Assembly: GCA_947446595.1 (NCBI GenBank)
Contig: CANFGS010000005.1
Span: forward strand, 20,419-84,418
Direction of reading: 5' to 3'
Length of the DNA: 64,000 bases
Origin: Neisseriaceae bacterium
GTDB taxonomy: Bacteria > Pseudomonadota > Gammaproteobacteria > Burkholderiales > UBA11063
Part shown: one piece after another, positions 53,281 to 60,038 of the stretch
How the letters are laid out: the number at the start of each line of letters is the position of its first letter
Position numbering within the stretch: the first letter of the stretch is position 1
Program-made: the position numbers and the translations under genes
Notes under the pieces: model-generated
Database searches by the model: none
What the model saw: only the letters and a program-made list of their open reading frames with translations
What the model was told of the DNA's origin: nothing

Positions 53281-54768
53281 ATGCCAAACCGCTTTTTAAG
53301 TATTGCACAAATCCGCCATATCGAAGCTGATGCGATTAATAAGTTCAAATTAAACCTAATGGATATAGCTGGGTCTAAAATTGCGCTGTGGGTTACCAAA
53401 AATCGTCCAAAGAGAGACAGGGTTATAGTATTGGTTGGGCGTGGCAATAATGGTGGTGATGGAGTAATTGCTGCAATTAATTTACTAAAAGCTGGTTATG
53501 CAGTTTCTATACTCCCAGTTGCGAGAAATTTAAACCCTACTACTGAATCATTGATCAATGATTTTGTCGAACTAAAAGGTCGTGTACTTACCAGAGTTCC
53601 AACATCATTAGCTTCATATGATTTAATTATTGATGCGATTATTGGTATTGGTATTACATATCAGCTTGATACTAAACTAAATAATTTAATTGATTTAGTT
53701 AATCAAAGTGGTAGTTTTGTTTTATCAGTTGATACTCCAACAGGTCTTGATCCATTTACTGGTGAAGTTTTTGGTAATGCAATTAGGGCAGGGCATACTA
53801 TTACTTTTATTAGTGATAAACCAGGTTTTTATACGGGAAGCGGTATTGATTTAGTTGGCAAATTATCAATTGAAACCTTAATTAATCTCGATGATTTTGA
53901 TATAGCAAAAGCTATCACGCCTGAGGTATTAGCTAATGATTTAAGTATTATTGATTATTCCATTTTAGTGCGTAAAACATATAATACAAATAAAGGCACT
54001 TTTGGTACCGTGGTAATTGTTGGTGGTAATGTTGGGATGCACGGTGCTTTGTATCTTGCGGGGCGTTCTGCTATGCTTTGTGGCAGTGGGAAAGTTATTT
54101 TATGTCCGTTAGATAAGAGTTTTGCCCCTGATATGGTTATGCCAGAACTGATGCTTAGTAAACCAAAAGACGTACTAAAAAACCTAGAGCAATATTCAGT
54201 GGTTGTGGTTGGCCCTGGGTTTGGAGAGGATCAAGTCGCAATTAATTTCTTACGAAAAATATTAAAACATAAGACACAAAATAAGTTTATTTTTGATGCA
54301 GATGCTCTTAATTTGATAGCCAAAAATCCAGAATTAGAATCGCAGTTTAGAATTCTTCCAAATAAAATTATTACGCCGCATCCAGGTGAGGCTGCACGTT
54401 TACTAAAAACAACTGTAATAGAAATAAATAGTAATCGGTTTAAAGCATTAAATAATATGTATCTCCAATTTAATTCAGTAACCTTGATAAAGGGTGCAGG
54501 ATCATTAATAAAAGATAATGATAATGTGTATTTAAACCAAACGGGTAATATGGCATTATCAAATGCAGGACAAGGTGATACATTATGTGGCATAATAGCG
54601 GCATTTGTAGCCCAAGGTATGGATTTATCTAGTGCTCTTAGGTTGTCAGTCTTTTTACATGGTAATGCAGCAGAATATTTGGTAAATTCAATTGGTTATA
54701 ATGGGATATTGGCTTCGGAAATTGCACTTACTGTTCGAAATTTATTAAATAAATTACTGTACTCATAG
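53281..54768 (+). CDS. nnr: Bifunctional NAD(P)H-hydrate epimerase/dehydratase
   Basis: VGRGNNGGDGVIAA; FDADALNLIAKNPEL, ITPHPGEAARLL, GAGSLI, NAGQGDTLCG. Confidence 0.95.
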   Translation: MPNRFLSIAQIRHIEADAINKFKLNLMDIAGSKIALWVTKNRPKRDRVIVLVGRGNNGGDGVIAAINLLKAGYAVSILPVARNLNPTTESLINDFVELKGRVLTRVPTSLASYDLIIDAIIGIGITYQLDTKLNNLIDLVNQSGSFVLSVDTPTGLDPFTGEVFGNAIRAGHTITFISDKPGFYTGSGIDLVGKLSIETLINLDDFDIAKAITPEVLANDLSIIDYSILVRKTYNTNKGTFGTVVIVGGNVGMHGALYLAGRSAMLCGSGKVILCPLDKSFAPDMVMPELMLSKPKDVLKNLEQYSVVVVGPGFGEDQVAINFLRKILKHKTQNKFIFDADALNLIAKNPELESQFRILPNKIITPHPGEAARLLKTTVIEINSNRFKALNNMYLQFNSVTLIKGAGSLIKDNDNVYLNQTGNMALSNAGQGDTLCGIIAAFVAQGMDLSSALRLSVFLHGNAAEYLVNSIGYNGILASEIALTVRNLLNKLLYS

Positions 54769-54791
54769 CAAGTTTTTTGGAGTTATATTGC

Positions 54792-57710
54792 ATGAAAACT
54801 ATACCAAGTGATATAAATGAAGTTCAGATTCCTATTGCTGCAATAACTGGTACTAATGGTAAGACTACCACTTCAAGAATGGTAGCTCATATATGGAAAT
54901 TATCAGGTAAGACTGTTGGGTTAACTACTACAGATGGGATTTATATCGATGGTAGTATGACTTTTGAAGGTGATACAACAGGCCCTAGATCAGCAAAAAT
55001 GGTCTTAAATAATCCTTTGGTTGAGGTGGCAGTACTTGAAACTGCAAGAGGCGGCTTACTTAGAAGTGGTATAGGTTATAAATATTGTAATGTTGGTGCT
55101 TGTCTTAATGTAACTGCGGATCATCTTGGTTTAGCTGGCATTAATTCTCTTGAAGATTTGGCAAAAATTAAGCGCATGGTGGTTGAGTCGGCACGAGATA
55201 CTGCTGTACTTAATGCTGATGATATAGAATGTCAAAAAATGCCTCCATTTATAACAGCTAGCAATATTTTGTATGTTACGATGGAACAAGATAATCAATT
55301 AGTTAAAGAACATATAAGATTAGGTGGTGGTGCGGTAGTTTTAGAAAAGCACCTAAATGGAGCTATGATTGTTATACATGATAAAAATCAGGAAAAGCAG
55401 GTATTATATGCAAGTTTAATTCCAGCAACAATCAATGGTCTAGCAATGCACAATGTACAAAATGCAATGTTTGCAGTTGCTATTTGTTATAGCATGGGCA
55501 TGAGTTTGGAAAATATTAAAAATGGACTTTTAACTTTCAAAACTGATTTTTCTCAGGTTCCAGGACGCTTAAATATTTATGATGAATACTCATTTAAGGT
55601 ATTGATGGATTACGCTCACAATCCTGCAGCACTTAAAGTAATTGGTGAATTAGCACAAAAAATGGAAGTTAAAGGTAAGCGCACATTGTTTTTATCTGCT
55701 CCGGGAGATAGACGTGATGAAGATATTATGGAGTTTGGGGTCATAGCCGCTAAATATTTTGATAATTATATTATTAAACAAGATGATGAATTACGCGGAC
55801 GTAATAGTGGTGATGTAGCTAAATTACTAAAACAAAGTTTGATTGATAATGGAATCAAAGACGAGAATATTATAGTTATACTTGATGAGGTTGCAGGTAT
55901 AGACTATGCTCTTCAAAATGCAGTAGATGGTGATTTAGTAGTATTATTAGCTGATAAAATAAAACGTAGCTGGGATCAGGTAATTAATTTCAAGCAAGTA
56001 GCAGCTACTAAGAAACCGGATATTTCTGATACTAGGTTGATGGGGCCAAGTATCTATTTTAATGATACTGGTGCGGTTTTAGATATTATTTTGTTTGGTA
56101 AAGATATAGAATATATTCCAGAGATTATAAAACTCTGGGAAATTGAACTAAAAAGAGTAATGTACGCCTTAAACTTACTAGAATATAAAACTGGTATTCG
56201 CATATATAGTCAAGGTTTTAAATATGCTGTATCATTCCCGCCAGATTTATTGAATTGTGGAATGAGTATTTTATGTCAAGTTTGGGCTTCGGTTTATAAT
56301 AAATATATAAATGGTGAATTTGATCCATTACAGAAAATACTTGATACTATTGAACCTGAAATTAGACAAGAACTCAATTTAAAATATCGTGAAATATGCA
56401 AAGAAGCATCTAAGCGCTCCCTAAACGTTTTTTTGAATAAATCTAATATTTGTATAGGTTCTGGTAAATACGGGTTTAGAGCAAATATAAATAATATTTC
56501 TTTAAAAGATATTCCTTGGGATGATATTAAAGAAGTTCCATCAGTACTAGTAACTGGCACTAATGGCAAAACAACTACTGTTCGAATGACAGCTTATATT
56601 GCAAGTCTTATTGGTAAGACGGTTGGATACTGTTCTACAGATTGGGTAATGATAGGGGATAAGGTTGTAGAAGAGGGTGACTTGTCAGGGCCTGCCGGTA
56701 GTTTGGAAGTTATGACTAATCCTGATGTTGAGATTGCAGTATTAGAGGTTGCTCGTGGTGGCTTGGTTAGGCGTGGAATAATTGCTAATTATGTAAAAGG
56801 ATCAACGGTTGTTAATATATCTGAAGATCATATGGGGCAAGATGGTATCGAAAATTTATCGTCTATGGCTGAGACCAAAAGTTTGGTGTATAAAGCAGTA
56901 GAAAATAGTGGTTATTCTATAATTAACTTAGATGATAAAGAAATAGGAAAGATTGTAGATAAAGTACAGGGTAGAAAAATTTTTATTACCAAGCGCACAT
57001 TGTCAGAAATAAGTCCATATATAAAAGATACAGAGCATATATGCTTTATTAAGGATAATGCTTTTTATTGGAAAACTCTTGAACATGAATTTATGATTGC
57101 AACTTTTGCTGATACTCCAATTACGGTTAATGGTAAGGCATTACATAATATTGAAAATGCGATGAATGCAATTTGTTTATCATATGTATTGGGTTTTACT
57201 TGGGAAGAAATTGCTAAAGGCTTAAAAACCTATGAGAATACAGCACAAAATAATCGGGGACGGACTAATGTTTTTAGATATAGCGGTGGCACTATAATTC
57301 TTGATTTTGCACATAATCCATCTGCAATTGGTGCGATTTTGGATATGGGGCGCACGTATTTAGGTGATAATTCAAAATTATATATGTTACTTGGAAATAC
57401 GGGTGATCGTGTTGAACTAACAGATGGTATTTGTCAAAAAGCAATCGATTATAATGTTGATGTAGTACTAATAAAAGAGCTACCACAGTATTTGCGTGGT
57501 GCAAAGCTTGGCGAATTAACTCAAAAGATAGAAACTACATTACTAAAAAAGGGTATGAAAAAAGACCAATTAATTATGATTGGCTCTGAGGAAGAAGCTC
57601 TAGCATATACATTTAAGGCTCTTAAGCTAGGAGATGTATGTGTATTTTTATGTCATTCAAGTACAGCTAAGATTCTTGAAGAGTTAAACAACCGTACAGA
57701 ATTAATTTAA
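54792..57710 (+). CDS. Tandem Mur-ligase protein: CphA M-domain-like ligase fused to a second Mur-ligase-family protein; no ATP-grasp domain
   Basis: Two separate Mur-ligase P-loops: IPIAAITGTNGKTTTSRMVAHIW near the N-terminus and VPSVLVTGTNGKTTTVRMTAYIA in the second half; each followed by ARGGL(L/V)R and LDFAHNP / MDYAHNP. Confidence 0.92.
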   Translation: MKTIPSDINEVQIPIAAITGTNGKTTTSRMVAHIWKLSGKTVGLTTTDGIYIDGSMTFEGDTTGPRSAKMVLNNPLVEVAVLETARGGLLRSGIGYKYCNVGACLNVTADHLGLAGINSLEDLAKIKRMVVESARDTAVLNADDIECQKMPPFITASNILYVTMEQDNQLVKEHIRLGGGAVVLEKHLNGAMIVIHDKNQEKQVLYASLIPATINGLAMHNVQNAMFAVAICYSMGMSLENIKNGLLTFKTDFSQVPGRLNIYDEYSFKVLMDYAHNPAALKVIGELAQKMEVKGKRTLFLSAPGDRRDEDIMEFGVIAAKYFDNYIIKQDDELRGRNSGDVAKLLKQSLIDNGIKDENIIVILDEVAGIDYALQNAVDGDLVVLLADKIKRSWDQVINFKQVAATKKPDISDTRLMGPSIYFNDTGAVLDIILFGKDIEYIPEIIKLWEIELKRVMYALNLLEYKTGIRIYSQGFKYAVSFPPDLLNCGMSILCQVWASVYNKYINGEFDPLQKILDTIEPEIRQELNLKYREICKEASKRSLNVFLNKSNICIGSGKYGFRANINNISLKDIPWDDIKEVPSVLVTGTNGKTTTVRMTAYIASLIGKTVGYCSTDWVMIGDKVVEEGDLSGPAGSLEVMTNPDVEIAVLEVARGGLVRRGIIANYVKGSTVVNISEDHMGQDGIENLSSMAETKSLVYKAVENSGYSIINLDDKEIGKIVDKVQGRKIFITKRTLSEISPYIKDTEHICFIKDNAFYWKTLEHEFMIATFADTPITVNGKALHNIENAMNAICLSYVLGFTWEEIAKGLKTYENTAQNNRGRTNVFRYSGGTIILDFAHNPSAIGAILDMGRTYLGDNSKLYMLLGNTGDRVELTDGICQKAIDYNVDVVLIKELPQYLRGAKLGELTQKIETTLLKKGMKKDQLIMIGSEEEALAYTFKALKLGDVCVFLCHSSTAKILEELNNRTELI

Positions 57711-57731
57711 TACAATTGAAACGAGGTAAAT

Positions 57732-58550
57732 ATGACAGTAGATACAAAAACGAAAAGAGGATATATAATCCCAATTGGGGGACGCGAAAGTAAATTAGCA
57801 AATCCTAAGGTTTTAGAAAAATTTGTTCAGCTATCAGGTGGGAAGAATGCTCATATAGTAATTATTCCAACGGCATCGGAGTTATCCGATACCGGAGAGA
57901 ATTATGTAAATTTATTTAAGACTCTTGGTGTGAAATCAGCTTATAGTTTAGAAATTCAAAAACGAGCTGATACTTCAAAAGCTGATTATTTAGAGAAGAT
58001 TCAAGAAGCAACAGGTATTTTTATGACCGGTGGCAATCAGTTATTATTATCAACTACTTTAGGTGGAACACCGGTTGCACAATTAATTAGACGTAAGAAT
58101 CAAGCTGGTACTCACGTTGCTGGTACTTCTGCTGGTGCAGCATTTATCCCAGAACATATGATAGCTGGTGGGCAACCAGGCTTGATGCCACGAGGAAGTA
58201 TGGTAGTATTAGCCCCAGGTTTGGGCTTAACTAATAAAATTTTGGTTGATCAGCATTTCTCACAAAGAGATCGCTTGGGGCGGTTACTAACGGCTTTATC
58301 GTACAATCCTTTTATAACTGGTATAGGTATTGATGAAGATACTGGAGCATTTTTGGGGCCAGATAATATAATTGAGGTAGTTGGTAGTGGGATGTTAACA
58401 ATTGTAGATATGTCACACCTTGATTATTCTTCAGTTCATAAGGCATCAACGGATGAACCAATTAGTTTGGTTGGTATACGGATGCATACTTTGGTATCAG
58501 GGGCGCGTTATGATGCACTAAACCATATTGCATACCCACATCAAGATTAG
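57732..58550 (+). CDS. cphB: Cyanophycinase
   Basis: YIIPIGGRESK, FMTGGNQL, VAGTSAGAAFIPEHMIAGG (Ser nucleophile), DQHFSQRDRLGRLL, GIGIDEDTG. Confidence 0.95.
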   Translation: MTVDTKTKRGYIIPIGGRESKLANPKVLEKFVQLSGGKNAHIVIIPTASELSDTGENYVNLFKTLGVKSAYSLEIQKRADTSKADYLEKIQEATGIFMTGGNQLLLSTTLGGTPVAQLIRRKNQAGTHVAGTSAGAAFIPEHMIAGGQPGLMPRGSMVVLAPGLGLTNKILVDQHFSQRDRLGRLLTALSYNPFITGIGIDEDTGAFLGPDNIIEVVGSGMLTIVDMSHLDYSSVHKASTDEPISLVGIRMHTLVSGARYDALNHIAYPHQD

Positions 58551-58576
58551 TAGTTAATTAGTTTAGGAGTATAAAT

Positions 58577-59440
58577 ATGACCAAAGCACGTATAATAATT
58601 CATGGTGGTTGTGGGGCCCACGAAGATGCAAATACTACTTTTGCTACTTATCATGAACACTTATTACCAATTATTCAAAAATCTCATGAAAATTTACTAA
58701 AATGTGATGATGCTATAGAAGCGGCACTATTCGCAGCAAATTTATTAGAAGATAACCCTATATTTAATGCAGGTACTGGTTCTAGGTTACAGCAAGATGG
58801 ACAAGTAAGGATGTCAGCTTCAATTATTGATAGCTTAAATAATAAATTTGCTGGAGTGGTAAATATCCAAGATGTGCAGTATCCATCAAGAGTTGCTCAT
58901 CGGTTGATGTCAGAACAGCATAGTATTATGGGTGGTGAAATGGCTACCAAATTCGCTCGAGAAAAATTAAACATTCCATACCATAATCCTATCACGCCTA
59001 AACGCTATAAAGAATATTTGGAATTTAAAAAAGGCTTGACAGGTACTATTGGTGTAATCGCATTAGATGGTAAGGGTGTTATTTGTGCAGTTACTTCAAC
59101 TGGTGGTGTTGGGTTTGAAGTTCCGGGACGTGTGGGTGATAGTGCTACAGTTGCGGGTAATTATGCAACTAGTAGTATGGGGATAGCATGTACTGGTATA
59201 GGTGAACAGATTATTAATCTGGCAGTTGCTGCTAAAACTAATACGCGAGTGGAAGATGACATGGATCTAAATGTTGCGGTTAATAAGGCTATTGCTGAGA
59301 GTAATGAAAGAGGTTACTATGTAGGGTTAATTGCTTTAGATAAATTTGGTAATGTAGCAACTGGTTCAACCTTACAAGCACAGACATTATACGCTTATCA
59401 TGATGGAGATAAATACACAACTTTCTATGATCAAATGTAA
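58577..59440 (+). CDS. iaaA: Isoaspartyl peptidase/L-asparaginase (Ntn hydrolase)
   Basis: IIIHGGCGAHED, NAGTGSRLQQDGQVRMSASIID, LTGTIGVIALD (Thr nucleophile), CTGIGEQI. Confidence 0.93.
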   Translation: MTKARIIIHGGCGAHEDANTTFATYHEHLLPIIQKSHENLLKCDDAIEAALFAANLLEDNPIFNAGTGSRLQQDGQVRMSASIIDSLNNKFAGVVNIQDVQYPSRVAHRLMSEQHSIMGGEMATKFAREKLNIPYHNPITPKRYKEYLEFKKGLTGTIGVIALDGKGVICAVTSTGGVGFEVPGRVGDSATVAGNYATSSMGIACTGIGEQIINLAVAAKTNTRVEDDMDLNVAVNKAIAESNERGYYVGLIALDKFGNVATGSTLQAQTLYAYHDGDKYTTFYDQM

Positions 59441-59576: not shown

Positions 59577-60038
59577 ATGAATTTATATGAAAATAAATAT
59601 TGGATAGTTGTTGCCAATGCTAGTAAATTTAAAGTGTTTGCTTGTGATAATAATTTACACAAACCCAATTTAATCTTTATTCGAGAATTAACTCACGAAG
59701 CAAGTCGCCTAAAAGTTCATGATCTAGAAGATCATAGTCCAGGGAGGTATAAAACTTATGCATTTGGTGAAGGTTCTACATATCAGCCAAAAACTGATCC
59801 TAGAGAAGTAACAAAGTATGATTTTGCTAAAGAAATTGCTTTACTATTAAAACATGCCAAAGATACCAATAAATATGAGAATTTAATAATAATTGCTCAT
59901 GATCATTTTTATGGAATTCTAAAGCTACATTTTGATCATACGGTGCAAGAGTCTATCTATATGACAATTCCAAAGGATTATTCATTTTTTTCTACAGAAG
60001 AATTAGAAAAAGCTATTTTAAACGAAGTCCTGAAGTAG
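59577..60038 (+). CDS. Host attachment protein family
   Basis: WIVVANASKFKVFA...ELTHEASRLKVHDLEDHSPGR. Confidence 0.75.
   Translation: MNLYENKYWIVVANASKFKVFACDNNLHKPNLIFIRELTHEASRLKVHDLEDHSPGRYKTYAFGEGSTYQPKTDPREVTKYDFAKEIALLLKHAKDTNKYENLIIIAHDHFYGILKLHFDHTVQESIYMTIPKDYSFFSTEELEKAILNEVLK

Follow-up and report, generated by a model that had tools for sequence, protein, structure and literature searches.

The window analysed here, a 64,000-nucleotide (nt) stretch of the genome that we call G000 (1.74 Mb; assigned to the genus Aquella, Neisseriales, Betaproteobacteria; other G numbers denote compared genomes), contains a gene encoding two Mur-ligase modules on one chain, directly followed by genes for a cyanophycinase (cphB) and an isoaspartyl peptidase (iaaA). 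We read this locus as a rearranged operon for cyanophycin, the nitrogen-storage polymer made by the synthase CphA1. The fusion protein would serve as an accessory ligase for side-chain (isopeptide) bonds, working in trans with polymer or peptides produced by an intact CphA1 encoded elsewhere; we put the probability of this reading at about 0.55. The rearrangement itself is real and conserved and concerns a known system. The remaining interest lies in a widespread companion of CphA1, here called Mur2, and in its natural fusion to a freed Mur-ligase (M) domain. Below, N and G denote the N-terminal and ATP-grasp domains of CphA1. The features of the fusion gene, with the evidence for each, are:

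54792..57710, + strand: fusion protein, a CphA1-type M module joined to Mur2 (N, remnant of G, M); open reading frame, Pfam, NCBIfam, start context, orthologues in G001 and G010
54819..55997, + strand: first Mur-ligase module, a CphA1 M domain, residues 10-402; phmmer to PDB 7lgn, identities, tree
54849..54872, + strand: P-loop 1, GTNGKTTT (GTNGRTTT in G001); sequence alignment
55998..56039, + strand: linker at the fusion point, residues 403-416; predicted local distance difference test score (pLDDT) <50 at residues 403-425, linker sequences
56040..56528, + strand: Mur2 N-terminal region, a degenerate CphA1 N domain lacking the HxxEH peptidase motif, then about 50 amino acids that share homology with the beginning of G, the ATP-grasp core being absent; hhalign against shuffles, HMMER, Foldseek, alignment
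56529..57707, + strand: second Mur-ligase module (Mur2 M domain); Pfam, motifs, HMMER to 7lgn
56556..56579, + strand: P-loop 2, GTNGKTTT; sequence motif and alignment

Two Mur-ligase modules and no ATP-grasp

The open frame at 54777-57710 encodes 977 amino acids from a TTG codon, or 972 from the ATG at 54792; a GGAG ribosome site lies just 5' of this ATG. The only Pfam domains in it are two Mur_ligase_M and two Mur_ligase_C stretches, and the GTNGKTTT P-loop, ARGGL, DH, GR and AHNP motifs are present in each half. The preliminary description of this DNA, made from the sequence alone, was thus right about two complete modules and slightly off in the size, given as about 973 amino acids. In both halves, the ATP- and Mg-binding residues (K499, T500, T522, E558, R731 and H748 of TeCphA1 and D585/H586 of SuCphA1) are aligned and identical in the window protein. 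Their roles as P-loop Lys/Thr, Mg-binding Thr/Glu, Asp-His pair and lid Arg/His have been described for the M domain (PMC9427784, PMC9262961).

The absence of an ATP-grasp module, which had also been proposed, was confirmed by Pfam, at the locus upstream and in a model of the whole protein. The gap between the stop codon of the upstream gene, yjeF, and the ATG of the fusion is only 23 nt, and therefore the upstream region cannot hide an N or ATP-grasp segment. The model has a sole low-confidence linker (residues 403-425, pLDDT <50); the ATP-grasp fold that the preliminary description had allowed for in this linker did not appear. An ATP-grasp concealed in the linker or upstream is ruled out by these three lines together. 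The first half is modelled well, and the packing of the modules is uncertain (predicted template-modelling score, pTM, 0.47). The TIGR02068 score of the fusion, 767 bits, is the sum of two partial matches and falls below the cut-off of 850 bits for CphA1. The fusion is not of the CphA2 type (intact G, degenerate M) either, as its G is absent and its M intact.

The first half is the M domain of CphA1, beginning almost at the P-loop as had been proposed: it matches PDB 7lgn (Tatumella CphA1) with an E-value of 1.4e-129 across residues 10-402 (phmmer) and is 55-64% identical to the M domains of other Aquella CphA1. Thirteen other CphA1s share 96 invariant columns in the M domain, and of these this module keeps 84 in all three known orthologues of the fusion. 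It deviates at seven columns in all three, none of them a known catalytic residue, and at five in some; the full-length CphA1 of the window genome deviates at six of the same 96 columns.

A full-length CphA1 at a second locus

G000 encodes a 937-amino-acid CphA1 on another contig (G000:C10:38411-41224) with N, ATP-grasp and Mur domains, which refutes the possibility of a genome without CphA1. The protein scores 1122 bits against TIGR02068 (cut-off 850). Its N and G domains align to Tatumella CphA1 7LGN (E-value 2.6e-142) and to SuCphA1, including KPLDGNHGRG of the G domain, and its N domain retains HxxEH, the motif of the primer-making site (PMC9262961). As the window cphB and iaaA are the sole peptidase S51 and sole Asparaginase_2 genes in the whole genome, a single cyanophycin system has its genes for synthesis at one locus and those for breakdown at another, with the fusion within the breakdown operon.

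The second locus dissolves the puzzle of a synthase without ATP-grasp. The ATP-grasp partner that the fusion would need if it acts in cyanophycin synthesis had been suspected elsewhere in the genome, and the 937-residue CphA1 fits this suggestion. The idea of the operon as an alternative synthase without ATP-grasp finds no support, given this ordinary CphA1 and relatives that carry cphA1, mur2, cphB and iaaA as separate genes. The preliminary description had also reckoned with a full-length CphA1 elsewhere beside a fusion that was inactive or devoid of ATP-binding residues. The former was found; the latter was not, as the residues are kept and the gene is under purifying selection.

Mur2 as a derivative of CphA1

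For the second half, a ligase family distinct from that of the first and an N-terminal domain of its own had been proposed. This description stands, with the correction that the N-terminal region is not unrelated to CphA1: it consists of a degenerate CphA1 N domain and the start of G. The Mur2 N-terminal profile scores 58 against CphA1 N+G in hhalign (maximum of 60 column shuffles, 21.7). When the region was split, its first part scored 27.7 against CphA1 N (shuffle maximum 21.6) and its later part 30.6 against the start of G (20.4). The alignment stops near CphA1 residue 211, about 50 residues inside G, and the M domain comes next in both proteins. HMMER independently gives a secondary match of Mur2 to 7lgn residues 113-189. 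An AlphaFold model of the Mur2 half (pLDDT 92.4, pTM 0.91) has CphA1 7WAE as its top Foldseek match, with a template-modelling (TM) score of 0.83 by query length and 886 columns spanning the whole of CphA1; the TM score to MurE is about 0.55. With scores and fold similarity far below those to CphA1, a MurE/MurF-like peptidoglycan enzyme was rejected as an identity for Mur2. By these alignments and models, Mur2 is an older derivative of CphA1 that lacks the ATP-grasp core and has a degenerate N domain without HxxEH. The remnant of G makes an origin by loss of this domain likelier than one by its gain; rooting the Mur tree with the genome's own MurE and MurF, an outgroup that is too distant, gave no order of loss and gain.

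At conserved positions Mur2 differs from M domains, with TDW for TDG, SGPxG for TGPxSA and EVARGG for ETARGG. We characterize the class by a degenerate N, the start of G and an M domain, by a length of about 570-620 amino acids and by a gene lying directly after cphA1. The second half of the fusion has these sequence and fold features; the gene neighborhood is seen in relatives, and here Mur2 is fused to the remnant of the cphA1 M domain.

Origin and conservation of the fusion

The fusion is present in three of 23 genomes of the family: G000, G001 (90% identity) and G010 (86%). It is not an assembly artefact, because two other genomes of the genus have the same junctions. In ten further genomes of the genus cphA1 lies beside a separate Mur2 gene of about 565 codons (complete, or as much of it as the contig covers), and cphB and iaaA come next where the contig allows. 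In particular, the order in G015, yjeF-cphA1-mur2-cphB-iaaA, is that of the window minus the cphA1 N and G codons. A short Mur2 fragment (62% identity) was also seen in G017, on a 676-base contig too short to show the fusion state.

Both halves were placed in a tree of Mur modules (IQ-TREE), as had been suggested. The first branches as the sister of full-length CphA1 from the same genomes (support 100/99), the second as the sister of the Mur2 of G015 (99/97). These positions and the G015 synteny indicate that cphA1 was duplicated in this lineage, and that one copy was shortened and joined to mur2. The relocated full-length cphA1 is also present in G010; it was not found in the G001 draft, which is 58% complete. 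The ancestral locus was thus yjeF-cphA1-mur2-cphB-iaaA. A duplication left a complete cphA1 copy elsewhere, while the operon copy lost N and G and what remained of it, the M part, became fused in frame with mur2.

The fusion is maintained by purifying selection on both halves. Pairwise ratios of nonsynonymous to synonymous rates (omega) are 0.11-0.135 for module 1, 0.16-0.20 for the N part of Mur2 and 0.13-0.18 for its catalytic part; for comparison, full CphA1 has 0.08, cphB and iaaA have 0.05-0.10, and yjeF has about 0.145. These low values and three intact orthologues disfavor a pseudogene.

Possible roles of the fusion protein

Under the reading given at the outset, the intact CphA1 would add Asp (and Arg) and extend the chain. 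The fusion would provide two side-chain (isopeptide) ligase sites in trans, acting on the same polymer, at its side chains or ends, or on its fragments. Module 1 would probably join Arg to the Asp beta-carboxylate, as in CphA1, and module 2 would do the job done elsewhere by the separate, cphA1-adjacent Mur2, be it addition of another side-chain amino acid, modification of the ends or recharging of peptides. CphB and IaaA would then break down the product. Several points weigh against an accessory ligase of this kind. Action of the modules on cyanophycin is suggested by homology and gene neighborhood; in the literature searched, outside which most subscription-journal papers lie, we found neither a description of Mur2 nor an assayed reaction. 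Module 1 would be a free M domain without the N domain that helps deliver the polymer, so that its activity in trans is uncertain, and it would be redundant beside the M domain of the full-length CphA1. In addition, module 1 of the G001 orthologue (from a draft that is 58% complete) carries Arg in place of the P-loop Lys found in the other two species. In this gene (L041:1953-4886) the motif reads GTNGRTTT with the Arg codon AGG, and both a draft error and a real change are possible.

The same substitution enters into the likeliest of the alternatives, in which module 1 serves for docking or dimerisation: as a freed M domain it would pair with full-length CphA1 and bring Mur2 to the synthase, leaving catalysis to Mur2 and CphA1. 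Mur2 is otherwise encoded beside cphA1, which suggests joint work, and module 1 has lost the N and G domains against which the M core packs in CphA1 (PMC9427784). We consider this role rather unlikely, as the ATP/Mg residues of module 1 are all intact in G000 and G010 and its departures from the invariant columns that are common to the three orthologues are non-catalytic; the packing of the modules is not predictable from the model. Less probable still, in our judgement, is a fusion that by itself makes a different isopeptide-linked dipeptide or polymer, independently of CphA1, to be recycled by CphB and IaaA, which was the leading idea of the preliminary description. Two intact ligase sites on one chain beside these two enzymes, and the Mur2 substitutions at conserved positions, would suit it. 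Yet a normal and conserved CphA1 is present, there is no ATP-grasp to extend an Asp backbone, and CphB matches the ordinary cyanophycinase model. Last comes a decaying remnant, in which a truncated cphA1 happened to become fused to mur2 and selection acts on mur2 only, a reading to which the truncation, the G001 P-loop and a somewhat longer stem branch of module 1 (0.40 vs 0.23) could be taken to point. This we regard as very improbable, since a frame of about 975 codons has stayed open in three species at 86-90% identity and the omega of module 1 is not above that of Mur2.

Beyond the accessory role of the fusion, we tentatively consider a wider possibility. Mur2 may be a second isopeptide ligase of different specificity, so that the cyanophycin of many bacteria would be a mixed or end-modified polymer. 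In Aquella, two proteins might in part share the CphA1 reactions: CphA1 would make the backbone, and the double ligase would decorate these chains in trans.

Comparison with known systems

The first half of the fusion is the M domain of CphA1 (PDB 7LG5, 7WAE; Tatumella 7LGN), and the second has the CphA1 N and M in the same relative place. Unlike CphA1, the fusion has no G in either half, two M-type sites per chain and an N domain without HxxEH. Cyanobacterial CphA2 is also a CphA1 derivative with one activity removed, but there G is retained and the P-loop and lid of M are gone (PMC9427784), the opposite of the Aquella fusion, where G is lost and M kept. Separate Mur2 proteins, such as those of Ruegeria (WP_117873666.1) and Shinella (WP_160788060.1), belong to the same family as the second half (24-47% identity over the full length), but everywhere else seen Mur2 has its own gene, and the fusion to cphA1 M was seen in the three Aquella genomes alone. 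MurE and other Mur ligases share the ATP-dependent amide ligase fold and motifs, whereas the fusion lacks their UDP-sugar-binding N-terminal domain and scores under the MurE cut-offs.

A plasmid-borne CphA of Legionella adelaidensis (WP_058462805.1) is likewise a CphA1 minus the ATP-grasp core followed by cyanophycinase and IaaA. It differs in its independent origin (it groups with Christiangramia CphA1), in keeping HxxEH, in being unfused and in an operon without cphA1. This protein, from the locus L143:5500-9144 (NZ_LR134428.1), has 622 amino acids, comprising N with HxxEH, about 35 amino acids of G, and M; a full-length CphA in the sampled genome G241 is 56-60% identical to it.

Mur2 outside the fusion

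We surveyed Mur2 in samples of 274 genomes of the class and 399 of the phylum. Outside the genus it was found in nine sampled genomes, in all nine directly downstream of a full-length cphA1; many other sampled genomes with CphA1 have no Mur2. The family spans Pseudomonadota, Acidobacteriota and a myxobacterium. Named records from two Acidobacteriota, Lysobacter Root916, Plesiocystis pacifica, Ruegeria and Shinella show mur2 after cphA1, usually with cphB preceding the pair, and the NCBI label of Mur2 is only 'Mur ligase family protein'.

Several Aquella genomes carry a second, stand-alone Mur2 paralogue that is not near any cyanophycin gene (L055:6580-8292, L056:5705-7438, L057:5475-7310, L058:1825-3540, L059:5269-6996), with inconsistent neighbors (rmuC, nth, a short-chain fatty acid transporter, sigma-70). 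In Aquella oligotrophica P08 (G016; L060:6464-8103) this paralogue is split into two overlapping frames of 320 and 241 amino acids and is probably a pseudogene. Tandem CphA-like pairs of another kind occur at Burkholderiales/Nitrosomonas loci (L064, L068, L069, L070, L076, L108), with a protein of about 730 amino acids followed by a CphA of about 856. The shorter member has N and G, and its M is truncated and matches only weakly, a split unlike that in Aquella.

Neighboring genes

The genes around the fusion in the window are:

53281..54768, + strand: yjeF, NAD(P)HX epimerase/dehydratase, upstream neighbor that anchors the ancestral locus by comparison with G015; Pfam, synteny
57732..58550, + strand: cphB, cyanophycinase (peptidase S51); TIGR02069, Peptidase_S51
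58577..59440, + strand: iaaA, isoaspartyl peptidase/asparaginase (N-terminal nucleophile family); PF01112

The cyanophycinase and isoaspartyl peptidase noticed earlier do directly follow the fusion, with spacings of 21 nt (fusion to cphB) and 26 nt (cphB to iaaA). CphB scores 250 bits against the equivalog model TIGR02069 (cut-off 126.6) and 83.1 bits against Peptidase_S51. IaaA matches PF01112 (Asparaginase_2) with 222.9 bits over residues 6-282 and is below the narrower equivalog model NF007589 (104 vs 567 bits). Further downstream, 59577-60038 encodes a Host_attach/baeRF family 12 (release-factor-like) protein with no known tie to cyanophycin.

A recognisable cyanophycinase has been reported in only 2.8% of betaproteobacterial genomes with CphA1 (PMC10206079). 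Aquella is an exception to this scarcity. In our tree, Aquella CphA1 groups with those of Ruegeria, Shinella, Lysobacter, Plesiocystis and Acidobacteriota, not with the Burkholderiales type.

Significance

A conserved partner of cyanophycin synthase in several phyla, annotated only as a Mur ligase family protein, is thus exposed as CphA1 minus ATP-grasp. The natural fusion offers a single gene for testing the partner role of Mur2, and the detached M domain would reveal whether the two half-reactions of CphA1 can run on separate proteins. If Mur2 does act at chain ends or add something other than Arg, non-cyanobacterial cyanophycin would have a composition different from the one assumed.

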